DNA of 64,000 nt. Source: Oscillospiraceae bacterium (GTDB lineage Bacteria; Bacillota; Clostridia; Oscillospirales; Acutalibacteraceae). The translations under genes and the position numbers were made by a program. This document shows, piece after piece, positions 10,763 to 64,000 of this stretch (the first letter of the stretch is position 1; every line of letters begins with the position of its first letter). The notes below the pieces were generated by a model. That model was not told the DNA's origin and ran no database searches. It saw only the letters and a program-made list of their open reading frames with translations. The stretch lies in the NCBI GenBank assembly GCA_902774035.1, contig CACYHA010000023.1, positions 1 through 64,000 of the forward strand. Reading direction: 5' to 3'.

Positions 10763-10791
10763 TTGACAATTGCGTTTGGAAGTGCTAAACT
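10763..10791 (+). promoter_or_regulatory. promoter of the T-box operon
   Basis: TTGACA (10763-10768) and TAAACT (10786-10791) are 17 bases apart, about 30 bases before the T-box stem I. Confidence 0.75.
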
Positions 10792-10829
10792 TCTTTCAAG
10801 TGAATAATCAGTAAAAGCTGACAAAAGCG

Positions 10830-11086
10830 TTGACGAAGACGGACGAGAGCAGTGGTCTTCCAGCGAGCCGGGGACGGTGAAAGCCCGGTAAGAACATCTC
10901 TCAGGTCCCATCCCTTCTGAGCTGAAGATGCAAAAGCTTATGCAAGTAGTGTCTTCCGTGATTGCTGCGTGAATGCATAGGGTTTGCCGGAACCCGAGAG
11001 TGGCGGTCTTCCGCAATTTGAGTGGTACCGCGGGTATTGTTGAAATGCTCGTCTCAAAGAAATTCTTTGAGACGAGTTTTATTTTT
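10830..11086 (+). ncRNA. T-box leader, probable Ile (AUC) specifier
   Basis: The T-box core TGGTACCGCGG is at 11023-11033. Stem I has GGACGAGAG (10841-10849) pairing with CTCTC and GTCC (10898-10908), a TCTT/AAGA helix, and a CCGGG/CCCGG distal stem with the usual AGCGAG and GGTGAAAG elements. The specifier side reads GAAC-ATC (10892-10898), so the codon is probably AUC. The bulge TGGT would pair with an ACCA tRNA end, that is a discriminator A, as in tRNA-Ile, Leu and Val. The terminator is a 14-base stem (11048-11061 with 11063-11076) followed by TTTTATTTTT. Uncharged tRNA should switch the downstream operon on. Confidence 0.92.
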
Positions 11087-11106
11087 CCGCAAAGGAGGAC
11101 ATCAGG

Positions 11107-13377
11107 ATGCAAACATCCCACCTTTCCAACGAAGTGCAGCAGGTGGCCGAGCGAATTCGCGAGATGCGTATGATCTACGGCTATACCACCGCTGAGATGG
11201 CGCAAAAAACCGAACTGACCGAAGCGCAGTACATTGCCTATGAAACTGCGACGGCTGATCTGCCGTTTACTTTCATCCACAAGTGCGCGTTCGCGTTCGG
11301 CATCGGCATTACCGATCTTCTAGAAGGGCATTCCGCCCATCTCTCCACCTACACCGTGACCCGCAGGGGTCAGGCGATCCGCACGGCGAAAGAGGACGGC
11401 ATCGAGATCCGCAAGCTTGCACCCCTGTTCCGCGGAAAAATCGCAAAACCCTATCTTGCAAAATACGATTACGACGAAAAACTGCAGAACCGCCCGATCC
11501 ACACCACGACCCACGCCGGCCAGGAATTCGACCTCGTTTTGAGCGGCACGCTCAAGGTGGTCGTCGACGGCCATGAGGTCGTGCTGGAAGAAGGCGACAG
11601 TATCTACTATAACAGCGGCCTGCCCCACGGCATGATCGCCATGAACGGCAAGGACTGCTCCTTCCTCGCGGTCGTGATGCCCGACGACAAGCAGACCAGC
11701 GACACCAAGGTGGAAGAGACCATCGTTTCCGCCGGAAAAGCCGAGACTCTGGCGATCAGCCCGTTCATCGACGCGAAAGAGGACGAAAAGGGCCACCTGG
11801 TCTCCCTCGGCTTCAAAAACGAAGAAAAATTCAACTTCGCCTACGACGTTGTGGACGCTATTGCAGACCGTGCGCCGGACAAGCTGGCCATGCTGCACGT
11901 CTCCAAAGACAAGGTGGAACAGCGCATCACCTTCCTCGATATGAAGCGCAACTCCGCCCGTACTGCCAACTATTTCAAGAGCCTCGGCATCAAAAAAGGC
12001 GACCGCGTGATGCTGGTGCTCAAGCGCCACCTCGAATTCTGGTATTCCATCCTTGCCCTGCACAAGATCGGCGCCATCCCCATTCCTGCAACGCATCAGC
12101 TTTTGGCCCACGATTTTGAATACCGCTTTGAACGCGCCGATGTCAAGGCCATTCTCTGCACCGCCGACGACAGCACCGCCGGTGAAGTGGAAAAAGCGGA
12201 ACAGACGGTCGGAAAACGCGCCGTCAAGATCATTGTTCACGGCAAACGCGACGGCTGGCACTGCTTTGATGAAGAATATACCATGTTCCGCAGTCATTTT
12301 CCGCGCACACAGGACACGCCCTGCGGCAGCGACCCGATGCTGATGTTCTTCTCCTCGGGCACCACCGGTTATCCCAAAATCGTTTTGCACGATTACAAAT
12401 ACGCCCTCGGTCACTACATCACTGCCAAATACTGGCACACTGTGCGCTCGGACGGCCTGCATTTCACAATCTCCGACACCGGCTGGGGCAAGGCGCTTTG
12501 GGGCAAGCTCTACGGTCAGTGGATGTGCGAAGGCGCGGTCTTCACCTATGACTTTGACCGCTTTCATGCCGACGACATTTTGCCGATGTTCGCAAAATAT
12601 CACATCACGACCTTCTGCGCGCCGCCAACGATGTACCGCATGTTCATCAAGGAGGATCTTTCCCAATATGACCTTTCCTCCATCAAATATGCCACCACAG
12701 CCGGCGAGGCGCTGAACCCCGAGGTCTTCTATCAGTTCAAGAAGGCGACCGGTCTCACGATCTATGAGGGCTTCGGCCAAACGGAGACCACGCTGACCAT
12801 CGGCAACCTGATCGGCACAACGCCGAAACCGGGCGCCATGGGCAAGGCGATTCCCACCTATGACATCGACCTTGTGGATCCCGACGGCAACCCGGTGGAG
12901 ACCGGCGAAACCGGCGAGATCGTTGTGCGCCTTGACAAGGGCAAGCCCTGCGGCCTGTTCATGGAATACTGCGGCAGCCCCGAACAGACCGAGGAAGCCT
13001 GCCGCGACAACATGTATCACACGGGCGACACCGCCTGGCGCGATGAGGACGGCTATTACTGGTATGTCAGCCGCATTGACGACGTGATCAAGTCCTCCGG
13101 CTACCGCATCGGCCCGTTCGAGATCGAAAACGTCATCATGGAGCTGCCCTACGTGCTGGAATGCGGCGTTTCCGCAGCGCCCGATGAAGTCCGCGGCCAG
13201 GTGGTCAAGGCGAGCGTTGTGCTCACCAAAGGCACCGAACCCAGCGAGGAGCTCAAAAAAGAGATCCAGACCTACGTCAAGACCAACACCGCGCCCTATA
13301 AATATCCCCGCATCGTGGTCTTCCGCGACGACCTTCCGAAAACGATCAGCGGAAAGATCATCCGCAGCAAACTGTAA
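11107..13377 (+). CDS. HTH-cupin-acyl-CoA synthetase fusion
   Basis: The 756-residue protein starts after AAAGGAGG. It joins an XRE helix-turn-helix (about 10-72), a cupin fold (about 118-192, with THAGQEFDLVLSGTL and GLPHGMIAM) and a full ANL-superfamily acyl-CoA synthetase (about 240-756). The adenylation motifs are SSGTTGYPK (416), GFGQTE, YHTGDTAWRDEDGYYW and SGYRIGPFEIE, with the catalytic lysine near 750 in SGKIIRSK. It resembles the medium/short-chain AcsM type. The usual arrangement in related genomes is a separate XRE-cupin regulator beside a ligase. With VOR and IlvE in the same T-box operon, branched short-chain acids are the likely substrates (inference). The HTH-cupin part may sense the acid or CoA ester. 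Confidence 0.88.
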   Translation: MQTSHLSNEVQQVAERIREMRMIYGYTTAEMAQKTELTEAQYIAYETATADLPFTFIHKCAFAFGIGITDLLEGHSAHLSTYTVTRRGQAIRTAKEDGIEIRKLAPLFRGKIAKPYLAKYDYDEKLQNRPIHTTTHAGQEFDLVLSGTLKVVVDGHEVVLEEGDSIYYNSGLPHGMIAMNGKDCSFLAVVMPDDKQTSDTKVEETIVSAGKAETLAISPFIDAKEDEKGHLVSLGFKNEEKFNFAYDVVDAIADRAPDKLAMLHVSKDKVEQRITFLDMKRNSARTANYFKSLGIKKGDRVMLVLKRHLEFWYSILALHKIGAIPIPATHQLLAHDFEYRFERADVKAILCTADDSTAGEVEKAEQTVGKRAVKIIVHGKRDGWHCFDEEYTMFRSHFPRTQDTPCGSDPMLMFFSSGTTGYPKIVLHDYKYALGHYITAKYWHTVRSDGLHFTISDTGWGKALWGKLYGQWMCEGAVFTYDFDRFHADDILPMFAKYHITTFCAPPTMYRMFIKEDLSQYDLSSIKYATTAGEALNPEVFYQFKKATGLTIYEGFGQTETTLTIGNLIGTTPKPGAMGKAIPTYDIDLVDPDGNPVETGETGEIVVRLDKGKPCGLFMEYCGSPEQTEEACRDNMYHTGDTAWRDEDGYYWYVSRIDDVIKSSGYRIGPFEIENVIMELPYVLECGVSAAPDEVRGQVVKASVVLTKGTEPSEELKKEIQTYVKTNTAPYKYPRIVVFRDDLPKTISGKIIRSKL

Positions 13378-13399
13378 AAGCGAAGCTTTTACAGTTTGC
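13367..13399. repeat. 15-bp perfect hairpin across the end of the synthetase gene
   Basis: GCAAACTGTAAAAGC and GCTTTTACAGTTTGC flank a GAA loop and include the stop codon. No T run follows, so it is not a standard terminator. It is joined to a short GCGAATTCGGAATT tract related to the 7-bp repeat family. Confidence 0.75.
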
Positions 13400-13432
13400 G
13401 AATTCGGAATTATCCCAACAATGGAGGTCCCC

Positions 13433-14128
13433 ATGATCCACCGCCCCAAGCGCATTTCAATCTTCTGCGGCCATTACGGCAGCGGAAAAACGAACATTGC
13501 GGTCAACTATGCGCTGCACCTGAAAAACAATTGCGAATTGCAAATTGCGAATTGCGAATTGCCTCATGTGGCGATCATTGACCTCGATATCGTGAACCCT
13601 TATTTCCGCACACTGGACAGCCGCAAGGAGCTGGAAGCCGCCGGAGTGGAGCTGATCTGCTCCGACTATGCCGGTTCCAACCTCGATATTCCCGCCCTCC
13701 CGGCCGCCATGCAGCGCCCCATTGCCGACCGCAGCACCTTCTGCGTGCTTGACATCGGCGGCGACGATCAGGGCGCCGTGGCACTCGGCCGTTTCGCTGA
13801 CCAGATCAAAGCCGAAAACGACTATGAGATGCTGTTTGTGGCAAGCTTTTTCCGTCCGCTGACGAGAACGCCGGAAGATGCGCTGGAAGTGCTGCGCGAC
13901 ATTGAAAACGCCTGCCATCTGCCCTTCACCGGCATCGTCAACAATTCCAACATCGGTGACGAAACGACCGTGGAAGACATCCTTGCAAGCGGCGAAAAGG
14001 CGCGCAGATTGAGCGAGCTTTCCGGCCTGCCGCTGGTCATGACGACCGTGCGCGAAGATTTGGCAACAGATCCGGCGCTGAAGAACGAAACCGTGTTTCC
14101 CCTGCGTTTGCAGGAAAAACCGATTTAA
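13433..14128 (+). CDS. P-loop ATPase of the ParA/CobQ type
   Basis: The 231-residue protein has a P-loop FCGHYGSGKTN (10-20), a switch-like IIDLDIVNPYF and a later LDIGGDDQGAVALGRF. The start follows GGAGGT. This class binds ATP and MinD/ParA-like partners or acts in cofactor or metal-centre assembly. Its place between the acyl-CoA synthetase and the VOR genes suggests a service role for that pathway, for example in Fe-S cluster handling, but this is only inference. A 7-bp repeat tract (13530-13562) encodes an odd cysteine-containing stretch, NCELQIANCELP, just before the second strand, where relatives have a shorter loop. Confidence 0.75.
   Translation: MIHRPKRISIFCGHYGSGKTNIAVNYALHLKNNCELQIANCELPHVAIIDLDIVNPYFRTLDSRKELEAAGVELICSDYAGSNLDIPALPAAMQRPIADRSTFCVLDIGGDDQGAVALGRFADQIKAENDYEMLFVASFFRPLTRTPEDALEVLRDIENACHLPFTGIVNNSNIGDETTVEDILASGEKARRLSELSGLPLVMTTVREDLATDPALKNETVFPLRLQEKPI
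13530..13562. repeat. in-gene tandem array of a 7-bp unit (ATTGCGA)
   Basis: Four full units (ATTGCGA, ATTGCAA, ATTGCGA, ATTGCGA) and a partial one lie inside the P-loop ATPase gene and keep the frame open. Confidence 0.85.
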
Positions 14129-14142
14129 CGGAGGTTTTCGAT

Positions 14143-15024
14143 TTGAAAAAAGCCGTTCCAATAATTGCTTTATGCTTGCTTTTGCTTTTGACCGGCTGCA
14201 GCGGGAAAAGCGCATTGCCTGAACCCGCTTTGCAGGAGTCTCTGTCTGTTTCCGACACGACGGATGCATCCATTGAGCAGACAGAAGTTGTTTTCGGCGA
14301 CATTCTTGATACACATTACAAGTTGGAAAACCGTGTTCTGTATGGAAAAGGTGAAAACAGCTTTCAAACGATAGGTTCCGATGCTTTCTATAACGATTGG
14401 GTCGAGATTGCGTCAAATGTTGCTGCATTCGACTATAATCCCAGTGTGTTGCTTTATCTGACGACGGACGGACAGGTTTTTGGAAAAGGTCTCATGGAAG
14501 GCGGCGTCATGCAAATTGAAACCGATGATAATAACAGCACCCTCTGTCTTGCGCAGCCCGCTTTGTTGTTTTCTGATGCGGCCGAGATTTCACTTGGCGC
14601 AAGGTTCGCCCTTGCAAGAAAAGCGGACGGAACCGTTTGGTTTTGGGGCGAGAGCAAAAACGGGCAGAGCACCGAAGTTGCGGATCAGATTCTTTCCCCA
14701 ATTCAGATTGCGGAGGATGCAATTGCAATCAAAGCGTTCCTGTATAATTCCGCATGGATTGACAAAGAGCATACGCTTTATATTTGCGGCGACAATTCTT
14801 TTGGTCAAATCGGCAACGGAGAACAGGGAAACGGATTCCCCACGACGTTCACAAGCAATGTTCCCGAACCCTATGCAGTGCTTGAAAACGCTTTGAACGT
14901 GTGGACAACAGAAGACCGGCAAACAGTTTTTGCCTCAACGCAAGACGGAACATCTTACACTTGGGGCGGCAATCAATATACAGTTCCAACGCCGGTTGCG
15001 GCGCAGAACATAGTTCAGTCATAA
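14143..15024 (+). CDS. RCC1-repeat-like lipoprotein
   Basis: The 293-residue product starts at TTG, placed by ACGGAGG eight bases upstream. It has a lipoprotein signal (MKKAVPIIALCLLLLLTGC, cysteine about residue 19) and a body with RCC1/BLIP-II-like blades, visible as WFWGESKNGQS, LYICGDNSFGQIGNG and SYTWGGNQY. It would be anchored outside the cell, and such propellers usually mediate binding. It is clearly more AT-rich than the metabolic genes on both sides and splits the operon with short gaps (14 and 32 bases). Its link to the pathway is unclear and it may be a later insertion. Confidence 0.8.
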   Translation: MKKAVPIIALCLLLLLTGCSGKSALPEPALQESLSVSDTTDASIEQTEVVFGDILDTHYKLENRVLYGKGENSFQTIGSDAFYNDWVEIASNVAAFDYNPSVLLYLTTDGQVFGKGLMEGGVMQIETDDNNSTLCLAQPALLFSDAAEISLGARFALARKADGTVWFWGESKNGQSTEVADQILSPIQIAEDAIAIKAFLYNSAWIDKEHTLYICGDNSFGQIGNGEQGNGFPTTFTSNVPEPYAVLENALNVWTTEDRQTVFASTQDGTSYTWGGNQYTVPTPVAAQNIVQS

Positions 15025-15056
15025 AAATGTAAGTTCATTGATACAGGAGGTAACGT

Positions 15057-15263
15057 ATGCCCAAAGTCACATTCAGAACCGACTGGTGCAAAGGCTGCGG
15101 TCTGTGCGCCCTGGTCTGTCCGAAGCAGATCATCGTGATCGCCAAGGACAAGATCAACCAAAAAGGACACTCCCCTGCCGAGATCACCGATCAAAGCAAG
15201 TGCATCGGCTGCGCGTTTTGCGCCACCATGTGTCCGGATTGTATCATCAAAGTGGAAAAGTGA
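15057..15263 (+). CDS. vorD: 2-oxoacid:ferredoxin oxidoreductase delta subunit (2[4Fe-4S])
   Basis: The 68-residue protein has two cluster motifs, CKGCGLCALVCP and CIGCAFCATMCP, each of the CxxCxxCxxxCP form. It starts after AGGAGG. It passes electrons between the thiamine-diphosphate site of the beta subunit and external ferredoxin. It is the first of four adjacent subunit genes (delta, alpha, beta, gamma), the common order for VOR/KOR enzymes of clostridia and archaea. Confidence 0.9.
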   Translation: MPKVTFRTDWCKGCGLCALVCPKQIIVIAKDKINQKGHSPAEITDQSKCIGCAFCATMCPDCIIKVEK

Positions 15264-15272
15264 GGTGTGAAC

Positions 15273-16336
15273 ATGTCTGAGAAAGTTTTGATGAAGGGGA
15301 ACGAAGCGATTGCCGAAGCCGCCATCCTTGCCGGCTGCCGCCATTACTTCGGTTATCCCATTACCCCGCAGACGGAGATCGCCGCCTACATGGCAAAGAA
15401 AATGCCCAAGATCGGCGGCTGCTTCCTGCAGGCGGAAAGCGAGATCGCGGCCATCAACATGGTCTACGGCGTTGCCGGCGCAGGCAAGCGCGTGATGACC
15501 TCCTCCTCCAGCCCCGGAATCTCGCTGAAAAGCGAGGGCCTGAGCTATCTTGCAGGTTCCGATCTTCCGGCGCTCGTGGTCAATGTTCAGCGCGGCGGCC
15601 CGGGTCTCGGCGGCATCCAGCCCTCCCAGTCCGACTATTTCCAGGCGACCAAGGGCGGCGGCCACGGCGATTACAAAATGATCGTCCTTGCCCCCTCCTC
15701 CGTGCAGGAAATGGCGAGTCTGACCGTCAAGGGCTTCGATCTTGCCGACAAATACCGCATGACGGCGATGATCCTTGCCGACGGCACCACGGGCCAGATG
15801 ATGGAACCCGTGAACCTCAGCGAAGTCGAAGTCCAGCACTACGACAAGCCGTGGGCTGTGACCGGCACCAAAATGCAGCGTGAGCACAACATCATCAACT
15901 CCCTGTTCCTGGAGCCCGAAGAGCTGGAAAAATACAACTTTGCCCGCTTTGAGCGCTACAAAGAAGTTGAAGAGAACGAGGTCATGGTCGAGGAATACCT
16001 GATGGACGACGCCGAAATCTGTGTGGTCGCCTTCGGTATTGCCGCGCGTGTTTCCAAGAACGCCATCAACGAGGCGCGCAAAAAAGGCATCAAGGTCGGT
16101 CTGATCCGCCCGATCACCCTGTGGCCGTTCCCGAAGAAGACTCTGCTCGCCGCGGCCGACAAGGTCAAGCAGTTCATCTCCGTGGAGCTGAACATGGGCC
16201 AGATGGTCGAGGATATCGAGCTTGCAACGAAGTGCAAAAAGCCTGTGACGCTCTGCAACCGCACGGGCGGCATGATCCCCTCTCCGCAGCAGGTGCTTGC
16301 GGCGATTGAAGAAGCCGACAAAGGAGGACAAGCGTA

Positions 16337-16337
<1 letters not shown>
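15273..16337 (+). CDS. vorB: 2-oxoacid:ferredoxin oxidoreductase alpha subunit, VorB-like
   Basis: The 354-residue protein begins MSEKVLMKGNEAIAEAAILA, the N-terminal signature of VorB (3-methyl-2-oxobutanoate:ferredoxin oxidoreductase). Domain I has GYPITPQTEIAAYMAK and SSSPGISLKSEGL; domain II ends with GMIPSPQQVL. A GTG six bases upstream is in frame, but the GAGGTG site fits the ATG at 15273. With VorA, C and D it interconverts branched 2-oxoacids plus CoA with acyl-CoA, CO2 and reduced ferredoxin. Discrimination from 2-oxoglutarate-specific KorA cannot be settled by eye; the ilvE neighbour favours branched substrates. Confidence 0.88.
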
Positions 16338-17091
<754 letters not shown>

Positions 17092-17095
<4 letters not shown>

Positions 17096-17628
17096 TGAAC
17101 CAGATTTTGATCGCCGGCTTCGGCGGCCAGGGCGTGCTCTTTGCCGGAAAATTCCTTGCAAACAAGGGTCTGATCGAAGACAAACAGGTGAGCTGGCTGC
17201 CCTCCTACGGCCCGGAGATGCGCGGCGGTACCGCCAACTGCTCCGTGATCATCGGCGACGAACCGGTGGGCTCCCCCATCGTCAACGAGCCGAACACCCT
17301 CGTTGCCATGAACCTGCCCTCGCTGAAAAAATATGAAAACAGCGTGGTTCCCGGCGGCCTGATCCTTGTGGATTCCTCGCTGATCGCCGCCAAGGTGGAA
17401 CGAAACGACGTGCGCGTTTGCTATGTTCCCGCCACGGAGCTGGCCAAGAACGCCGGTTTCGCCACCCTCGCGAACATGATCCTCATGGGAAAACTCCTCA
17501 AAGAGAGCGACGACATGAGCTTTGACGACACCGAGGACGCGCTGAAAAAGGTCATTCCGGCGCGCAAGATGAACCTGCTGGACGTCAATCTGCAGGCGCT
17601 GAAAACCGGCTATGATTACAATGCGTAA
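17092..17628 (+). CDS. vorC: 2-oxoacid:ferredoxin oxidoreductase gamma subunit
   Basis: The 178-residue subunit begins [20 protein letters not shown], the GFGGQG signature of gamma subunits, and has [17 protein letters not shown]. It overlaps vorA by ATGA. It completes the four-subunit enzyme and contributes to CoA binding. A 7-bp repeat tract follows the stop codon before ilvE. Confidence 0.9.
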
Positions 17629-17634
17629 TTAGAA

Positions 17635-17651
17635 ATTCGCAATTCGCAATT
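17635..17651. repeat. 7-bp repeat (ATTCGCA) between vorC and ilvE
   Basis: Two and a half units of ATTCGCA. The unit is the reverse complement (rotated) of the ATTGCGA unit in the P-loop ATPase gene. Confidence 0.75.
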
Positions 17652-17677
17652 ATTATTGAAAGAAAGGGTGCATTTCT

Positions 17678-18742
17678 ATGGAAATCAAAATCACAAGAAC
17701 AACTTCTCCGAAGCAAAAACCCGTCCCCGGTCAGCCGCTCGGGTTCGGCAGAATCTTCACCGACCACATGTTCGTGATGAATTACACCGAGGGCAAAGGC
17801 TGGCACGACGCCCGCATCGTCCCCTATCAGAATCTCTCGCTCGCTCCCTCCGCCATGGTTTTCCATTACGGTCAGGAGATGTTCGAGGGTCTGAAAGCCT
17901 ATAAGGGCGAAGACGGCACCGTCTATCTGTTCCGCCCCGACATGAACGCCAAGCGCACCAACAACACCAACGAGCGCCTGGTGATCCCCCAGCTTCCCGT
18001 GGAAGACTTTGTGGAAGCCGTGCGCGCCGTTGTGGACGTGGACCGCGACTGGGTCCCGACGGATCCCGGCACCTCGCTCTACATCCGCCCCTTCATCATC
18101 GCCACGGATGAATTCCTCGGCGTTGCGCCCTCCAAGACCTATCTGTTCATCATCATCCTCTCCCCCTCCGGCGCCTACTACGAGAGCGGTCTGGAACCGG
18201 TCGGCATCTGGATCGAAGACGAATATGTCCGCGCGGTCAAGGGCGGCATGGGCTTTGCCAAGACCGGCGGCAACTACGCTGCCAGCCTGATCGCCCAGGT
18301 CAAGGCGCACGACGACGGTTATTCCCAGGTGCTCTGGCTGGACGGCGTGGAGCGCAAATACATTGAAGAAGTCGGCTCCATGAACATCATGTTCAAGATC
18401 GCCGGCAAGGTCGTCACCCCGATGCTCAACGGCTCCATCCTGCCGGGCATCACCCGCGATTCCATCCTCACCGTTTGCCGCGAATGGGGCTACGAGGTCG
18501 AGGAGCGCCGCATCAGCGTGGACGAGCTGGTTGCCGCCGCGAAGGACGGCACGCTCGAAGAGGTCTGGGGCACCGGTACGGCCGCCGTGGTCTCTCCGGT
18601 CAACAAGCTGCGCTATGAGGACGACGTCATGCTGATCGGCGACGGCGGCATCGGCGAACTGACCCAGAAGCTCTATGACGAACTGACCGGCATCCAGTGG
18701 GGCAAGCTGGAAGACAAGCGCGGCTGGAGAGTCACTGTGTAA
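17678..18742 (+). CDS. ilvE: branched-chain amino acid aminotransferase
   Basis: The 354-residue fold-type IV PLP enzyme has PYQNLSLAPSAMVFHYGQEM, the PLP lysine in FAKTGGNYAASL, LDGVERKYIEEVGSMNI and a C-terminal VWGTGTAAVVSPV. It transfers an amino group between glutamate and 2-oxoisovalerate, 2-oxoisocaproate or 2-oxo-3-methylvalerate. It starts after GAAAGGG. As the last gene of the T-box operon it gives the final step to Val, Leu and Ile if the operon runs in the synthetic direction. A strong terminator follows. Confidence 0.93.
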   Translation: MEIKITRTTSPKQKPVPGQPLGFGRIFTDHMFVMNYTEGKGWHDARIVPYQNLSLAPSAMVFHYGQEMFEGLKAYKGEDGTVYLFRPDMNAKRTNNTNERLVIPQLPVEDFVEAVRAVVDVDRDWVPTDPGTSLYIRPFIIATDEFLGVAPSKTYLFIIILSPSGAYYESGLEPVGIWIEDEYVRAVKGGMGFAKTGGNYAASLIAQVKAHDDGYSQVLWLDGVERKYIEEVGSMNIMFKIAGKVVTPMLNGSILPGITRDSILTVCREWGYEVEERRISVDELVAAAKDGTLEEVWGTGTAAVVSPVNKLRYEDDVMLIGDGGIGELTQKLYDELTGIQWGKLEDKRGWRVTV

Positions 18743-18770
18743 ATTGAAAGTTGAAAATTGAAAATTGAAA
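18743..18770. repeat. 7-bp repeat (ATTGAAA) after ilvE
   Basis: Four units (ATTGAAA, GTTGAAA, ATTGAAA, ATTGAAA) directly follow the ilvE stop. Confidence 0.8.
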
Positions 18771-18787
18771 ATGAATTGATTGAAAAG

Positions 18788-18815
18788 GCTTCCCTGCATC
18801 CGGGGAAGCTTTTTT
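18788..18815 (+). terminator. terminator of the T-box operon
   Basis: GCTTCCC pairs with GGGAAGC, followed by TTTTTT. Confidence 0.85.
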
Positions 18816-30998: not shown

Positions 30999-31349
30999 TC
31001 AATAGGTCAGGATCGCGGCGAAGACCACAAGGCTGCCGCTTTCTTCGCGGTTGGCGATGGAATGCTTCTGGCCGCCAAGGCAAAGGCAACTGTCGCCCTG
31101 CTGCAGGATCTCGGTTCTGCCGTTGTCGTCATAGGTCGCGGTGCCCTCGATCACATAGAAGACCTCTTCCTCGTTCTCGTGCACATGCGCGCCGATGGAG
31201 CAGCCGGGTTCCAGACGAATCGTGCCCAGCAGCCGGGCCGCGCCCTTGTATTCGCCCTTGTTCAGGATATCGGTGACCACGGCCTGTCCGTCGCCGCCGC
31301 GCATATTCACCTTGACGGTGGAAGTCATATCGCTGGCTCTTTTAATCAT
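30999..31349 (-). CDS. small cupin-domain protein
   Basis: The 116-residue protein is a single cupin: IRLEPGCSIGAHVHENEEEV gives the first metal-binding motif (two His, Glu) and GGQKHSIAN the second His. It starts after AGAGGAG and is the first gene of the minus-strand operon that runs to the FAD dehydrogenase at 23649. Substrate unknown; such cupins are often small metalloenzymes or sensors. Confidence 0.87.
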   Translation of the reverse strand: MIKRASDMTSTVKVNMRGGDGQAVVTDILNKGEYKGAARLLGTIRLEPGCSIGAHVHENEEEVFYVIEGTATYDDNGRTEILQQGDSCLCLGGQKHSIANREESGSLVVFAAILTY

Positions 31350-31380
31350 GGTAAAGTCTCCTCTTATAGTTATTCACTTT

Positions 31381-31409
31381 ATTATAGCAACAAATTCCAT
31401 TTTTATCAA
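31381..31409 (-). promoter_or_regulatory. promoter of the eight-gene minus-strand operon
   Basis: On the minus strand TTGATA (31409-31404) and TATAAT (31386-31381) are 17 bases apart; the next seven genes follow with gaps of at most 40 bases or overlaps. Confidence 0.8.
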
Positions 31410-31468
31410 GTTCTTTTGCTCAATTTCAGAAAAATGAAAGAAGTTTTCGAAAGGGCGGCAAGTTTTGA

Positions 31469-31497
31469 TTGACAAAGGAGAGAGAATCTATTAAAAT
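31469..31497 (+). promoter_or_regulatory. promoter of the Fn3-like secreted protein gene
   Basis: TTGACA (31469-31474) and TAAAAT (31492-31497) are 17 bases apart. Confidence 0.8.
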
Positions 31498-31529
31498 GAA
31501 GATAACTATGAGAGATTGGAGCGATTCAA

Positions 31530-32438
31530 ATGAAACGGATGATTTCCGTTCTGCTGGCGGCGCTGATCCTGCTTTCCTGCGCGGCCGTGCCCGCGACCGC
31601 GTCCGCAAAAAAAGATCAGCTCGAAGAGATCTATGATCTTTACGTTTTTGTTCCGGAGAACAAATCAAAAACCCTTTGTCTGACCTGGTACAAAAGTGAA
31701 GAAACAAAGCCGGACGGCTATCAGATATTCCGCAGCGACAGCGGTAAAAAGGGTACGTATGAAAAAATTGCCACAACGACGGAGCCGACCTACACGGATT
31801 CGGGTCTCAAAAATCAAACGGTCTATTTTTATGCGGTACGTGCTTATGCAAAAAGAGGCGGTAAGATCCTTTACAGCCCGATCGCCAAAAGAGACTGCTG
31901 CACCAAGCTCACCAGATCGTATGCCGCGAAGCTTTTGAAAAAGGGCTACGAGATCTACCGGAAATGGATCACCCGGGACGAACTGGAGCTGAACTACAAC
32001 AAAGCAGTCACTTACAAGGAAACAATTGTAGGCGACGACGGTCAAAAGTTTTGGTTGCTGACGCCCTACTATCTTGTAAAGGACAAAACATTCACAACAA
32101 AGAAGGCCATCAAGAAGTACTTGAACAAGCATTTTGCCTACTGGTGCGTCGGCTCGTTTGTCGATGACTATTATGTGGAACGCAACGGACGTCTTTATAC
32201 GCGTGAGCCGGCTTTCGTTGACGGCGTCGGTCAAATCTACGACAAATTCACGATTCGGGATATCGCGCAAAAGGATGATTTCGCATCGTTTTCCGTGCTT
32301 GAAACCTGGACGACATATACAGGCGATTTCCCGGTCATGGGCGCTTATACGTTATTCCGCGAAAAGAACAGATGGGTCTTCAGCGACAATAGCTGGTTCC
32401 CGACCAAAGACTGGATAGAAAGGAAGTTTGTCTCATGA
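31530..32438 (+). CDS. secreted protein with Fn3-like domain
   Basis: The 302-residue product has a signal peptide (MKRMISVLLAALILLSCAAV, with a possible lipobox cysteine at about 17). A fibronectin-III-like domain at about 35-120 shows LTWYKSEETKPDGYQIFRSD, TYTDSGLKNQTVYFYAVRAY. A second domain of unknown type follows (KFWLLTPYYLVKDKTFTTK and LFREKNRWVFSDN). It probably works outside the cell. Its stop overlaps the ThyX start by ATGA, so the two are cotranslated. Confidence 0.82.
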   Translation: MKRMISVLLAALILLSCAAVPATASAKKDQLEEIYDLYVFVPENKSKTLCLTWYKSEETKPDGYQIFRSDSGKKGTYEKIATTTEPTYTDSGLKNQTVYFYAVRAYAKRGGKILYSPIAKRDCCTKLTRSYAAKLLKKGYEIYRKWITRDELELNYNKAVTYKETIVGDDGQKFWLLTPYYLVKDKTFTTKKAIKKYLNKHFAYWCVGSFVDDYYVERNGRLYTREPAFVDGVGQIYDKFTIRDIAQKDDFASFSVLETWTTYTGDFPVMGAYTLFREKNRWVFSDNSWFPTKDWIERKFVS

Positions 32439-33820
32439 AACACGGCGCATTCATCATCGGCGTTTCCTCCTGCGGCGAAGCGGTCTGCGCGGCCGCCGGC
32501 AGGATCTCCACGCAAAAGGGCACGGCGCTCGAAATTATGGAGCGTTCGCGCGACAAAGACAAAAACGCAAACCTCATCTCCAAAGTGACCGCCTCCGGCC
32601 ACACCTCCACCGTGGAGCATGTATTCTTCAACCTCGCGTTTGAAAATGTTTCCGTCGTGGTGGAACAGTTCATGATCGAATTCCGTCTGGCGTCATTCAC
32701 GGTCAAATCCCGCCGTTATGTGGATTTTGCCGACTGCGGCTATCATGTTCCGGCTGCGCTGAACGAGGCGCAGAAAGCCCGCTACACCTCGCAGATGGAC
32801 AAGCTCTTTGCCCTTTACGGCACACTGTGCGAACGCGGCATTCCCAAGGAAGATGCGCGTTTTGTGCTCCCCTACTGCTTTTATTCCAACTTCTTCTGTT
32901 CGCTGGGCGGCCGCGAGCTGATCAACGTGCTGCGCGCCATGCTCTACGGACGCGGCAGCAAAAACGCGGAGATCCGCGCCATCGGCGAAGACCTGCTTGC
33001 CCAGTGCAAAGAGGCTGCGCCTGGCGTGTTCGGCGATTTTGAAGCGAAGAACGCCGGCTACTGCGATCTGCCGCCCCTGCCCGAAGTGCAGGACGACCCG
33101 CAAGCGGATACGCAGCCCCCGGTGGCTGTCCTTTCGCAGACGCCCGACGCGGAGCTGCTCGTTGCGCAGACCGCGCTCATGGAGCGTTACGGCTGCACGC
33201 CGGAAACGGCAAAAGCCGCCCTCGCCGACAAAACCGTTTTGCGCCGGACGCTGGACGCCGTTGTCGGCGGCGGACGTCCCCGCGCGCTGGAGGCAGCCTG
33301 CTTCACCGTGCGCTTTTGCGACGTTTCGCTTTCCACGCTCACCCACTTTGCCCGCCACCGGATCCAGAGCATCGCCATTCCCTCGCTGACGACCTGCAGA
33401 CGGAAAAACCACATCATTCCGCCCTGTTTGGAAGCCGATGCGGAGCTGCTCGATCTTTATCTCGACGCCTTTTCCTCCACAGCGGCGCTTTACGACGCGC
33501 TGAAAAGCGAGGGCGTTTCCGAAGACGATCTGATCTATGTGCTGCTTTCGGGCAATGTGATCGACTTTGTGACCACGCTCAATGCCAGGGAGCTGCGGCT
33601 GTTTTTGAAGCTGCGCACCTGCACCCGCGCCCAGTGGGAGATCCGTGCGCTGGCGACCGAGCTGCTGTTCCTGCTGCGAAAAGACAATCCCCTGCTGTTC
33701 GCTTCGTTCGGCCCGAGCTGCGTCATCGACGGCAAATGTCCCGAAGGCCGGATGTGCTGCGGCAAGATGGACGAGATGCAAAAAACATTCCGCGGCACAG
33801 GCGAGGAGGCGCAGGCATGA
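32435..33820 (+). CDS. double-domain ThyX-like (flavin-dependent thymidylate synthase family) protein
   Basis: The 461-residue protein carries two ThyX-type domains. The first has GHTSTVEHVFFNLAFENVS and RLASFTVKSRRY near residue 85-96; the second has LTHFARHRIQSIAIPSLTTC near 303-320, with the RHRxxSxxxPS pattern. Classic ThyX is about 220-250 residues and works as a homotetramer, so this is a tandem fusion. In each half part of the RHRxxSxNxxSxRY motif is degenerate, and the flavin and dUMP sites could be built across the two halves. It would make dTMP from dUMP, with tmk a short distance away, or a related reaction. Confidence 0.82.
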   Translation: MKHGAFIIGVSSCGEAVCAAAGRISTQKGTALEIMERSRDKDKNANLISKVTASGHTSTVEHVFFNLAFENVSVVVEQFMIEFRLASFTVKSRRYVDFADCGYHVPAALNEAQKARYTSQMDKLFALYGTLCERGIPKEDARFVLPYCFYSNFFCSLGGRELINVLRAMLYGRGSKNAEIRAIGEDLLAQCKEAAPGVFGDFEAKNAGYCDLPPLPEVQDDPQADTQPPVAVLSQTPDAELLVAQTALMERYGCTPETAKAALADKTVLRRTLDAVVGGGRPRALEAACFTVRFCDVSLSTLTHFARHRIQSIAIPSLTTCRRKNHIIPPCLEADAELLDLYLDAFSSTAALYDALKSEGVSEDDLIYVLLSGNVIDFVTTLNARELRLFLKLRTCTRAQWEIRALATELLFLLRKDNPLLFASFGPSCVIDGKCPEGRMCCGKMDEMQKTFRGTGEEAQA

Positions 33821-35481
33821 AAAAAGCACTGAGCTTTCTGCTCGCCGTTCTGCTGTGCCTTTCGGCCTTTGCGCCGCTGCAGGCCGGGGCGGCCGAGCTG
33901 CTTCTGGCGAGCATGGAAGTCGAATTCCGGCAGACGGAAGCGCGGAAGATCCTTCCGATGATCAACGAGATGCGCAAAAGCAAAGACGCCTGGTACTGGA
34001 ACCAGACCAACACCGAAAAGATCAGGGTCACCGATCTGAAGGACCTGGCTTACGACTATTCTCTTGAACAGATCGCCATGCAGCGCGCGGCGGAGATCGC
34101 CTTTTCCTATTCCCACATGCGCCCCAACGGCTCCCTGTTCTACAGCGCCTATCCGGAGGGATACCTCTACTTCGGCGTGGGCGAAAATATTGCCGCAGGA
34201 CAGATGAGCGCCGAAGAAGCCCACACGGACTGGCGCGAAGACAACGAGGATTATGAAGGGCAGGGACACCGTCGCAGTATGCTGGACGCGGACTTCACCG
34301 CCGTCGGCATCGGCTGCGTCTGCGTTGGGGGCGTCTGCTACTGGGCCGAAGAATTCAGCGGCGCCCAGAGCCTCGCGGAGGCGATCGACGCGCCCGACGG
34401 CAAGGCCGAAGTCACGCTGGAGATCGCCAAAGCCGCGGTGACCGCCACTGCCTGCAAAGCGACTCCGGAAAGCATGGAGCTCGTCGCCGGAAAAAGCGCC
34501 GCGCTGCCCGGCGCGGTCTTGCGCGCCCGCACGGCAGAAACCTGGCCGAACGGCACGGAACGCACGCTGAAAACAGATCCCGTCTGGAGCAGCGACAACA
34601 CTGCAATCGCCGCGGCACAGGACGGAAACCTCGTTGCCAAGGCCGCCGGCAGCACCAAACTGCGCGCGGACGTTTGCGGAAAAACGCTCGAGGTTCCCGT
34701 GCGCGTTGAAGGCGCGCCGGAGCCTGTGACAGAGCCTTCGAGCGAGCCTGCGACGCAGCCGCCGGAGCCGTCCTCCGAGCCGTCCTCCGAGCCGTCTTCA
34801 CAGCCCTCCGCAGAGCCTTCTGTTTCACCGTCCGCCGAACCGTCCACGCAGCCCTCCGCGCAGCCGACCACAACCCACACCCACGCGTTTGATATCATGG
34901 TCACGCCCGCGCAATATCACAAAAACGGCAAGCGGGTCATGACCTGCAGAACCTGCGGCGAACAAAAAACGGAGAAGATTCCGCAGATCGAACGCATCGC
35001 GCTTTCCAGAACCAAATACATCTGCAACGGCAAGGTCAAGACCCCGTCCGTCACCGTCACAGACGGCAGCGGCAGCGTTTTGAAGCAGGGTCGGGATTAT
35101 CAGCTCACCTACAGCAAGGGCCGCAAAGAGCTCGGCACTTACCGGGTCAAGGTCAGCTTTTTCGGCAACTACACCGGCAGCAAAAAGGTCGCGTTCAAAA
35201 TCGTGCCCGCCAAGGTGACCGGTCTGAGCGCAAAGGTGGAAAAGCAAAGCGTTGCCCTGCGCTGGGATCCCGTCATGGGCGCCAAATCCTACGCGGTCTA
35301 TTACACCACGGACAAGAACGAGCCGTATCAGAAGATCGGCAGTACCAAAAAAGCCGGCGCAACCATTCGGAAGCTCCAGCCGGGCACGGTCTATTATTTC
35401 CGTGTACGCGCCTGCGCCAAGGTGGACGGCAAAGCCTACAAGGGCGAGCTTTCCGCCGCAAAAAAATGCAAAGTGAAATAA
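33817..35481 (+). CDS. secreted CAP/SCP-domain protein with Ig-like and Fn3 domains
   Basis: The 554-residue product starts after GAGGAGG and overlaps the ThyX stop. A signal peptide (about 1-26) is followed by a CAP domain at about 35-185 (QRAAEIAFSYSHMRPNG, GVGENIAAGQ, EGQGHRRSMLD). An Ig-like segment follows (VWSSDNTAIAAAQDGNL), then a Ser/Pro/Glu linker near 300-345 built of SEPS and QPS repeats, and a C-terminal Fn3 domain (VTGLSAKVEKQSVALRWDP). It is probably an extracellular, wall-associated protein. Confidence 0.86.
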   Translation: MKKALSFLLAVLLCLSAFAPLQAGAAELLLASMEVEFRQTEARKILPMINEMRKSKDAWYWNQTNTEKIRVTDLKDLAYDYSLEQIAMQRAAEIAFSYSHMRPNGSLFYSAYPEGYLYFGVGENIAAGQMSAEEAHTDWREDNEDYEGQGHRRSMLDADFTAVGIGCVCVGGVCYWAEEFSGAQSLAEAIDAPDGKAEVTLEIAKAAVTATACKATPESMELVAGKSAALPGAVLRARTAETWPNGTERTLKTDPVWSSDNTAIAAAQDGNLVAKAAGSTKLRADVCGKTLEVPVRVEGAPEPVTEPSSEPATQPPEPSSEPSSEPSSQPSAEPSVSPSAEPSTQPSAQPTTTHTHAFDIMVTPAQYHKNGKRVMTCRTCGEQKTEKIPQIERIALSRTKYICNGKVKTPSVTVTDGSGSVLKQGRDYQLTYSKGRKELGTYRVKVSFFGNYTGSKKVAFKIVPAKVTGLSAKVEKQSVALRWDPVMGAKSYAVYYTTDKNEPYQKIGSTKKAGATIRKLQPGTVYYFRVRACAKVDGKAYKGELSAAKKCKVK

Positions 35482-61939: not shown

Positions 61940-64000
61940 TTATTTCATCTGAGCTTTGTAGTAGTTCATCAGGCAGCCTTCGAGGATGATCGTTTTTTCA
62001 TCCTCCGTCAGACCTTTGACGTAAAGCGTGATGTCCTTCACGCCGTCCCCTGCGATCACCTTGGCGGGAATGGTCTCCACACCGTTTTGGATCGCGCTGC
62101 GGATGCCGGGCACAAAGACATAATCGCCGACCTCATAGGGGAAGGGCGTGTCCTTGTCAAGCGTGAACGGCAGAATGCCCCAGTTGATGCAGTTGGAGCG
62201 GTAGCGCTTCGTGGCAAAGGCATAGCAGATGTTTGCAAAGCCGCCGAGCACCTTCTGGCAGGAAGCGGCCTGTTCGCGGGCGGAACCGTCGCCGGGACGG
62301 TTGGCAAAGACGCAGGAGCCGAACTGGGTGTGCTTTGCGGTTTCGGCGGCGTCGTCCGTGACCTTTGAAAGCACGGCGATCACCTCGTCGGAACCGCCGG
62401 CGCGGCGTTTTGCCTCCTCGGCGGCCACAGCCTTGGCGCGGGGCACATACTGCGGTTCGCGGCGGGAAAGGGCAAATTCGGAAAGGCGCAGCGGATTGGA
62501 GCGGTAGGAGGAGGTTTCGCCCGAGGGGATCAGCTCATCCGTGGTCGTCACGTCGTCATGCAGCACGGCGGCGAGCTTGACCAGCAGGTTCTCCTCCAGG
62601 GCGTACATCTGCGGCCAGTCGGTGATATTCGGGCCGAAGCGCAGCTCCGCCTCTGGGTCGGCCTTGCCGAAGCCCTGATAGACACGGCGGTCGTAAACGC
62701 CCTTTTCGAAGCTGTATTCATAGGAAACACTGTCGTAATCCACGTCGGTCGCGGCGGTGAGGATGCCGCCTGCCGCTGCCGTGGCGGCAATGGAGCGGGC
62801 ATCCACAAGCGCAACGGAGGAAAGCTGGCCGTCGCCGGGCTTGCTGCCCTCGCGGTTCGGGAAGTTGCGCGTGGTGTGGCGGATCGAAAGGCCGTTGTTG
62901 GCCGGAACGTCGCCGGCGCCGAAGCATGGACCGCAGAAGCAGGGTTTGAAGACCGCACCGGCCTCCAGCAGCTTTTGCTGGACACCGTTTTTCAGCAGCG
63001 CCAGATTGATCGGCACGCTGGAAGGATAGACCGACAGGCTGAAATAGCCGTCGCCGGTGGATTTTCCGTCAAGGATCGCAGCCGCCTCGCAGATGCTTTC
63101 GAACATGCCGCCGGAGCAGCCCGCGATCACGCCCTGATCGACATAGATGCCTTCGGGACGGATCTTGTCCTGCAGGGAGAAGTTGACCTTGCTGCCGAAC
63201 TGGGCCTTTGCCGCTGCTTCCACATCGCGCAGCAAACCCGGATTTGCCTGAAGCTCATGGATGGTAAAGGCGTTGGAGGGGTGGAACGGCAAAGCGATCA
63301 TGCTTTCCATTTTGGAAAGATCGATGCGGATGGCCATATCGTAATACGCGCCGTCCTGCGGCTGCAGCGCTTTGTAGTCCTGCGGCCTGCCGTGAACGGT
63401 ATAGAACTTTTGGATCTCGTCGTCTGTCTCCCAGATGGAGGAAAGGCACGCGGTCTCGGTGGTCATCACGTCGATGCCGATGCGGAAATCGGCGGAAAGG
63501 TTTTTCACGCCCGGGCCGACGAATTCCAGCACCTTGTTCGTCACGAGACCTTCCTTGAACACCGCGCCGCAAAGGGCGATCGCAACGTCGTGGGGACCGA
63601 CGCCCTTGGGCGGTTTTCCTTCGAGATAGACGCAGACGACCTGCGGCGCCGGAATGTCCCAGGTGTTCTTCAAAAGCTGCTTGACCAGCTCCGGGCCGCC
63701 CTCGCCGACACCCATGGTACCCAGCGCGCCGTAGCGCGTGTGGCTGTCGGAGCCGAGCAGCATGTTGCCGCATTTTGCCATCTCTTCCCGAGCGTACTGG
63801 TGGATGACCGCCTGATTCGCCGGGACGTAGATGCCGCCGTATTTTTTCGCCGCGGAAAGACCGAAAACGTGGTCGTCCTCGTTGATCGTTCCGCCGACGG
63901 CGCAAAGGCTGTTGTGGCAGTTGGTCAGCGCGTAGGGGATCGGGAACTCCTTCAGGCCGCTGGCGCGCGCCGTCTGGATGATGCCGACATAGGTGATGTC
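61940..64000 (-). CDS. aconitase-family hydratase, 5' end outside the window
   Basis: The gene runs off the right edge. The visible 686 residues include LTNCHNSLCAVGGTINEDDH, GSDSHTRYGALGTMGVGEGG and a cysteine-containing CFCGPCFGAGD, features of the aconitase superfamily that bind the [4Fe-4S] cluster and citrate/isocitrate. The C terminus ends YKAQMK. The order aconitase, GDPD, icd suggests an operon for 2-oxoglutarate and glutamate supply. Whether the substrate is citrate or another hydroxyacid cannot be read without the missing N terminus and a comparison. Confidence 0.88.
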   Translation of the reverse strand, partial: DITYVGIIQTARASGLKEFPIPYALTNCHNSLCAVGGTINEDDHVFGLSAAKKYGGIYVPANQAVIHQYAREEMAKCGNMLLGSDSHTRYGALGTMGVGEGGPELVKQLLKNTWDIPAPQVVCVYLEGKPPKGVGPHDVAIALCGAVFKEGLVTNKVLEFVGPGVKNLSADFRIGIDVMTTETACLSSIWETDDEIQKFYTVHGRPQDYKALQPQDGAYYDMAIRIDLSKMESMIALPFHPSNAFTIHELQANPGLLRDVEAAAKAQFGSKVNFSLQDKIRPEGIYVDQGVIAGCSGGMFESICEAAAILDGKSTGDGYFSLSVYPSSVPINLALLKNGVQQKLLEAGAVFKPCFCGPCFGAGDVPANNGLSIRHTTRNFPNREGSKPGDGQLSSVALVDARSIAATAAAGGILTAATDVDYDSVSYEYSFEKGVYDRRVYQGFGKADPEAELRFGPNITDWPQMYALEENLLVKLAAVLHDDVTTTDELIPSGETSSYRSNPLRLSEFALSRREPQYVPRAKAVAAEEAKRRAGGSDEVIAVLSKVTDDAAETAKHTQFGSCVFANRPGDGSAREQAASCQKVLGGFANICYAFATKRYRSNCINWGILPFTLDKDTPFPYEVGDYVFVPGIRSAIQNGVETIPAKVIAGDGVKDITLYVKGLTEDEKTIILEGCLMNYYKAQMK

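Follow-up and report, generated by a model that had tools for sequence, protein, structure and literature searches.

Why would a T-box, which activates genes under a shortage of charged tRNA, stand before genes for an acyl-CoA synthetase, a branched-chain ferredoxin oxidoreductase (VOR) and the branched-chain aminotransferase IlvE? The question is raised by positions 10763-18815 of the window, a 64,000-nucleotide stretch of an Oscillospiraceae bacterium (contig CACYHA010000023.1; source genome G000). The region contains eight open reading frames (ORFs), all on the + strand, as are all its features given below, and it reads as one transcription unit running from a promoter-like site to a terminator-like site. 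An earlier note, made from the letters alone, proposed that the unit may turn branched short-chain acids into branched-chain amino acids. Our analysis made it quite likely that the operon serves salvage and biosynthesis under the control of isoleucine: 2-methylbutyrate would be activated, carboxylated and aminated, with uncharged tRNA-Ile as the inducer.

The leader was analysed with covariance models. Cmscan of 421 bases matched the T-box family RF00230 at 10821-11059 over the full length of the model (positions 1-219; 75.2 bits, E = 1.2e-16). Because the gathering score is 93, a default Rfam scan of the window misses the leader and lists only a tRNA. In the related loci L052, L062 and L066, six homologous leaders of Ile or Val type scored 81-99 bits, and four of them exceeded 93; for the Leu leaders the scores were 122 (L062) and 132 bits (L066). 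The match is preceded by a sigma-70-like promoter (TTGACA-17-TAAACT, 10763-10791; 10/12 in a consensus scan). Alignment to the model placed the antiterminator bulge, TGGT, at 11023-11026, matching the earlier reading of that motif. An intrinsic terminator follows at 11047-11087, with a 14-pair stem (11047-11077) and a T run, and the 5' arm of this stem alternatively pairs in the antiterminator, as judged by the model pairs. The leader has both a TGGN bulge and a mutually exclusive terminator, as expected of a T-box. Consensus folding (alifold) of 31 related Ile leaders gave 40 pairs, 19 of which showed two-sided changes that kept the pair; stems I, II and III covaried. The specifier AUC was invariant across these 31 leaders, which we did not count as proof because the rows had been preselected as Ile.

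The specifier was instead read from a register calibrated on the same genome. A search of G000 with RF00230 found eight T-boxes, and the names of the genes downstream of them were checked by NCBIfam. In the window leader, AUC (10910-10912) lies six bases upstream of a conserved GAGC (10919-10922). The same register gave UUC before pheS, ACC before thrS, UGC before cysE-cysS, CUC before a leuA-like gene, and GUC before both valS and ilvB; the eighth leader (L008) was left unread. The spacing in the ilvB leader is odd, and its Val reading is the least sure of the G000 leaders. The relevant passage of Wels et al. (2008; PMC2494555) places the codon 1-5 bases ahead of the conserved GAG. We accepted a spacing of six since the leaders of known genes agree on it. 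Another candidate, within GAACAUC at 10892-10898, was rejected; in the model alignment it sits at the helix above the loop, and the known leaders, by their register, point to 10910-10912 instead. By the calibrated register, the specifier of the window T-box is AUC (Ile), as the earlier note had thought probable.

Downstream of the leader, a 756-residue fusion of helix-turn-helix (HTH), cupin and acyl-CoA synthetase parts is encoded at 11107-13377 (AMP-binding, AMP-binding_C, Cupin_2 and a weak HTH_19 match). The four VOR subunits are all present: a VorD-like ferredoxin subunit (15057-15263; 4Fe-4S domains, PorD_KorD 44.7 bits against a cut-off of 60), the alpha subunit (15273-16337; NF005507, where it is named VorB, 550 bits against a cut-off of 399), the thiamine pyrophosphate-binding beta subunit (16337-17095; TPP_enzyme_C) and the gamma subunit (17092-17628; PF01558). 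Only the alpha subunit exceeds the cut-off of its best NCBIfam model. The type II branched-chain aminotransferase gene ilvE lies at 17678-18742 (TIGR01123, 416 bits, cut-off 250), and a terminator-like site with a stem at 18790-18806 and a T run follows at 18790-18812. Leaving the leader terminator aside, a consensus scan of the + strand from the leader to 18790 found a single terminator-like site, a 5-pair stem at 12327-12342 inside the synthetase gene. The claim of one transcript through ilvE was borne out to this extent, that the scan showed no strong inner terminator; the numbers of such sites in the region were near chance (promoter-like, 9 found and 4.1 expected; terminator-like, 14 and 12.1). 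The earlier gene list was right for the fusion, the four VOR subunits and ilvE, and it had overlooked two ORFs between the fusion and VOR genes, encoding a P-loop protein and an RCC1-like protein.

The best NCBIfam model for the synthetase was MbcS (NF047394), with 434 bits against a curated cut-off of 850. We did not file the protein as MbcS because this score is below the equivalog cut-off. Among solved structures, the nearest PDB chain was 3etc (E = 2.4e-178, 597 bits over the synthetase domain). 3ETC is MacsMa from Methanosarcina acetivorans, whose preferred substrate is given as 2-methylbutyrate in a passage of PMC10455477. The comparison with MacsMa covered the synthetase domain. In the XRE-cupin part, Cupin_2 was matched and HTH_19 scored 22.2 bits, below its cut-off of 30.2; the N-terminus was helical in a weak structure model (predicted local distance difference test, pLDDT, of 66.6 for the full fusion). 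This part may serve in sensing. Since the amino acid sensed is isoleucine, 2-methylbutyrate is the likely main substrate here.

The proposed sequence of events is as follows. When isoleucine-loaded tRNA runs short, uncharged tRNA-Ile would build up and bind the AUC specifier and the TGGT bulge, so that the antiterminator would form and the operon would be read through. The AMP-forming synthetase would convert 2-methylbutyrate to 2-methylbutyryl-CoA, VOR with reduced ferredoxin would carboxylate this to 3-methyl-2-oxopentanoate, and IlvE would aminate the product to isoleucine. Relatives would use the same VOR and IlvE for isobutyrate as well, activated by an additional synthetase under Val control. 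The leader, the specifier, the order and conservation of the genes, the paralogue split and the rarity of the classical entry enzymes are read from sequence; the substrates and the direction of VOR in this scheme are predicted. Synthesis is favoured by four considerations: the sign of T-box control, the AMP-forming type of the synthetase, the split between synthetase paralogues and the scarcity of ilvA and cimA in genomes with the block. The paralogue split and the gene scarcity were found in related genomes.

A search of 200 genomes of the family found the fusion or its synthetase part (E <= 1e-100) in 119. We took 60 stretches from 55 of these genomes, mostly the best fusion matches; with the window, the sample comprised 56 genomes. 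The synthetase, the P-loop gene and VorDABC occurred together on 39/60 stretches, and in 40/56 genomes when the window is included. The earlier note had suggested looking for the same block in relatives; the T-box, synthetase and VOR recurred there, and IlvE was found on 27 of the 39 VOR stretches. The 60 stretches and the window together held 83 synthetase copies, counted at 48% identity or more, and 76 of them had an upstream T-box (seven did not). Forty-nine of the 76 were read as Ile and 27 as Val; a script supplied 47 Ile and 26 Val readings, and inspection by eye added one Val (second copy of L062) and two Ile (L065, L082). The script favours Ile where there are several candidates, and a second candidate existed in 6/73 readings (more in the other samples). 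There were 22 tandem pairs. In 21 of them both copies had T-boxes, and all 21 ran Ile then Val (one second copy by eye); in the remaining pair, L076, the second copy lacked a T-box. Aromatic specifiers were found before none of the 76 copies, and an aromatic (IOR-type) role was rejected.

The specifier also followed the protein. In a tree of 80 synthetases, built from sequences of at least 480 residues (three shorter ones being omitted), 24 of 25 Val copies fell in one clade, the exception being L095. The Ile/Val label changed four times on the tree, compared with means of 25.6 for Ile and 21.5 for Val after shuffling, and none of 500 shuffles was as low. We then compared the 39 copies of the main Ile clade with the 25 Val copies, leaving out L095 and ten Ile copies from two other clades. 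Consistent differences lay mainly in the HTH-cupin part; those in the catalytic part included positions 461, 464, 476 and 478. Position 461 is Gly in the Ile type and in 3etc, and Ala in the Val type, where it would fit a smaller, isobutyrate-sized pocket. The earlier note had named 2-methylbutyrate, isobutyrate and isovalerate as substrates; the first stands as the likely main one, and isobutyrate would go to the Val-T-box paralogue. Such a paralogue was not seen in G000, whose genome is 85% complete.

Two wider samples gave a similar picture. A named set, the best 80 of 590 loci, partly overlaps the family set and consists almost wholly of metagenome-assembled genomes; 39 of the 80 have a ruminant host in the title, counted by eye. 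Of its 128 copies (at 50% identity or more, with two further copies excluded for too little upstream DNA), 69 were read as Ile and 33 as Val, 22 had no T-box and 4 were unread. No Val first copy and no Ile second copy occurred among these best 80 loci. Class-wide, a match at E <= 1e-220 was present in 100/391 genomes, and 28 loci from this search gave 23 Ile readings (16 by script, 7 by eye) and 3 Val, one further locus being cut and one lacking a T-box. In L105, L106 and L107, the XRE-cupin part and the synthetase were two separate stretches; no upstream T-box was found in these three loci, nor VOR genes on the stretch. The split form is perhaps an older, protein-regulated version.

For the classical pathway, we searched the 200 family genomes for ilvD, ilvC, ilvA (TIGR01127) and cimA (TIGR00977). 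A source of 2-oxobutyrate, ilvA or cimA, was found in 3/40 block genomes vs 116/160 others (Fisher p = 2e-14), and ilvC in 7/40 vs 103/160, where the others include genomes with a synthetase match that were not retrieved (63 of 119) and may hide blocks. With one genome per genus, the counts were 2/23 vs 79/112 for ilvA or cimA (p = 3e-8) and 5/23 vs 70/112 for ilvC (p = 4e-4). Among the 26 block genomes that are at least 95% complete, ilvA or cimA occurred in three and ilvC in seven. Four of 14 block genomes with only the Ile copy, among them G138 of the same genus as the window, had ilvC and ilvD without ilvA or cimA, compared with 2/150 genomes outside the T-box and VOR sets; these four thus keep the valine genes and lack the usual isoleucine entry. 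Their 12 PALP-family proteins were assigned as cysK (4), thrC (3), TrpB-like (2) and trpB (1), with two unclassified. Together with the T-boxes of the two paralogues and the 2-methylbutyrate preference of the nearest solved homologue, this depletion supported the anabolic direction proposed before.

Several observations weigh against the biosynthetic interpretation. VOR can run in either direction and is often catabolic. The synthetase misses the MbcS cut-off, and its likely substrate is assigned by homology. IlvE was not seen on 12/39 VOR stretches, some of which end at contig ends. The association tests were made without tree correction, and losing all four classical genes is not specific to the block, because 32/150 outside genomes also lack them. 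Nor is the operon always the sole route: G003 (same genus; ilvA, ilvC, ilvD), G133 and G148 carry both the block and the classical genes. The earlier note had held that a complete ilvBNCD pathway would speak against its proposal, and this was partly found within the genus, in G003 and, with ilvC and ilvD present but neither ilvA nor cimA found, in G138. In G000 itself, ilvA, cimA, ilvC and ilvD were not found, which proves little alone because the genome is only 85% complete; the absence of ilvC and ilvD was rejected as proof, G003 and G138 having both. Finally, a perfect 15-bp hairpin without a T run (13367-13399) lies over the synthetase stop codon and might lower downstream expression.

Other interpretations share part of this evidence. 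The synthetase and an oxidative VOR could supply acyl-CoA primers for branched fatty acids, with the T-box coupling that supply to amino acid status. MbcS, the best NCBIfam match, supplies branched primers in staphylococci, and ten genomes had a T-box synthetase without VOR on the stretch. However, VOR and in many cases IlvE belong to the same unit, and a T-box that senses a lack of isoleucine would burn isoleucine precursors when they are scarcest. Such a role also leaves aside that the specifier tracks the synthetase paralogue and that ilvA and cimA are depleted; we consider it improbable. Still harder to defend is a catabolic operon, in which IlvE and VOR would ferment isoleucine to 2-methylbutyryl-CoA and the synthetase would run in reverse or detoxify acids. 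VOR is commonly annotated as catabolic and the reactions are reversible, but the sign of the T-box is wrong for breakdown since it turns the genes on at scarce charged tRNA. In catabolic VOR systems the CoA ester is usually a source of ATP; an AMP-forming synthetase, as found here, suits activation. Moreover, the block genomes are mostly without the classical entry enzymes. We regard a catabolic role as very unlikely.

A third possibility is compatible with isoleucine salvage and differs from it in breadth: a single synthetase and VOR would handle isobutyrate, isovalerate and 2-methylbutyrate, with tRNA-Ile alone as the sensor. VOR enzymes are usually broad in substrate, and G000 has one full high-scoring fusion match (one further match was counted). 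Relatives, on the other hand, have distinct Ile-type and Val-type synthetases that differ consistently. Both ilvC and ilvD were kept in 5/14 Ile-only block genomes and in 2/25 with both copies, as if valine were made otherwise in some genomes, and in G000 ilvBN probably stand under a Val T-box, with a Leu T-box heading another operon. We hold this broad operon to be rather unlikely, with more than a slight chance of being right.

The ilvBN genes of G000 lie on contig C5 (L009 12147-15402), where a T-box precedes ilvB and ilvN and an ORF of the metallo-beta-lactamase family stands between them; this T-box probably reads Val. The Leu operon is on contig C7, at about 31071-35280 (L010 2072-6279), and consists of a Leu T-box, the leuA-like gene and a gene for an 837-residue fusion of TIM-barrel and AMP-binding parts. 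The same arrangement was found in L062, L063, L066, L088, L094, L111 and L129. In many loci the Leu operon adjoins the block; in G000 it is on a separate contig. The leuA-like protein has HMGL-like and LeuA_dimer domains and scores below the cut-offs of the LeuA models. Forty-one leuA-like genes had upstream DNA: 30 were preceded by a Leu T-box, five by a T-box not read as Leu and six by none. It is possible that the Leu T-box operon is a third, leucine arm of the system.

A larger picture may be drawn, which we favour by a small degree. Gut Clostridia would carry an Ile/Val/Leu T-box salvage island with three synthetases and a shared VOR and IlvE, which would replace the classical pathway partly or wholly and would be the basis of the branched-acid requirement of rumen bacteria. 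The substrates of the synthetases would be 2-methylbutyrate, isobutyrate and, for the TIM-barrel fusion beside the leuA-like gene, a leucine precursor. If this is true, the specifier codon predicts the substrate of the synthetase.

The chemistry itself has long been known. Rumen bacteria carboxylate branched volatile acids to branched amino acids (Allison et al., 1966; Robinson and Allison, 1969; Allison and Peel, 1971; as cited in a passage of PMC7356843). The reactions are alike; what we propose here is a gene cluster and its T-box control, and no gene assignment for the rumen carboxylation was found in the open-licence papers searched. For Prevotella bryantii, a passage of a 2020 paper (PMC7709123) calls the conversion of branched acids to amino acids via EC 1.2.7.7 theoretically possible and unproven; it shares the reverse VOR reaction with our proposal and does not mention a T-box operon. 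In Rhodospirillum rubrum, an isoleucine-linked methylbutanoyl-CoA pathway was proposed with classical enzymes of synthesis and breakdown, according to a section of PMC7238569. The T-box ilv/leu operons in the main text of PMC2494555 likewise place an amino-acid-specific T-box on branched-chain genes; there the genes are ilvBCD/leuABCD, whereas here they are those of the synthetase, VOR and ilvE. That main text (Wels et al., 2008) contains no mention of ferredoxin, acyl-CoA or ilvE, and a search of the main texts of two T-box surveys for a few terms found neither ferredoxin nor acyl-CoA. No T-box operon with an acyl-CoA synthetase or a branched-chain ferredoxin oxidoreductase was found in the open-licence papers searched. 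The genes, the T-box control and the Ile/Val/Leu split thus look new within the open-licence literature searched. Because the operon supplies the genes, the switch and the expected synthetase substrates, the question of reverse VOR becomes testable gene by gene. VOR operons of this type should not be annotated as amino acid breakdown. They also provide a genomic marker for gut and rumen bacteria that possibly need other organisms to supply isobutyrate, 2-methylbutyrate or isovalerate, and the window operon could allow isoleucine to be rebuilt from a neighbour's waste fatty acid when isoleucine-loaded tRNA is short.

The two overlooked ORFs differ in conservation. The P-loop (SIMIBI-like) NTPase gene (13433-14128) was present in all 39 related stretches with VOR. 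The window copy had no Pfam match, and its relatives matched CbiA/ParA; an AlphaFold model (pLDDT 86.9) matched signal recognition particle GTPases and NifH in Foldseek only at a TM-score of about 0.5. The protein might, as a guess, take part in maturing an iron-sulfur enzyme. The RCC1-repeat lipoprotein-like ORF (14143-15024; RCC1_2) had no tblastn match among the 140 related loci searched, and by this comparison it is an addition in the source genome, placed between the P-loop and VOR ferredoxin genes.

The hairpin at 13367-13399 may also affect processing or read-through. It is not conserved, as L108, a 94% relative, has a short-repeat tract at that place: a long run of TCAATCCC-like short repeats spans L108 6140-6460, from the synthetase to the P-loop gene. 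In the window, AATTGCG-type direct repeats at 13529-13560 lie inside the P-loop gene and seemingly add residues relative to L108, and similar short repeats occur 3' of ilvE (18738-18765). Near the end of the window, the - strand encodes an aconitase-family protein (61943-63781; PF00330 and PF00694).

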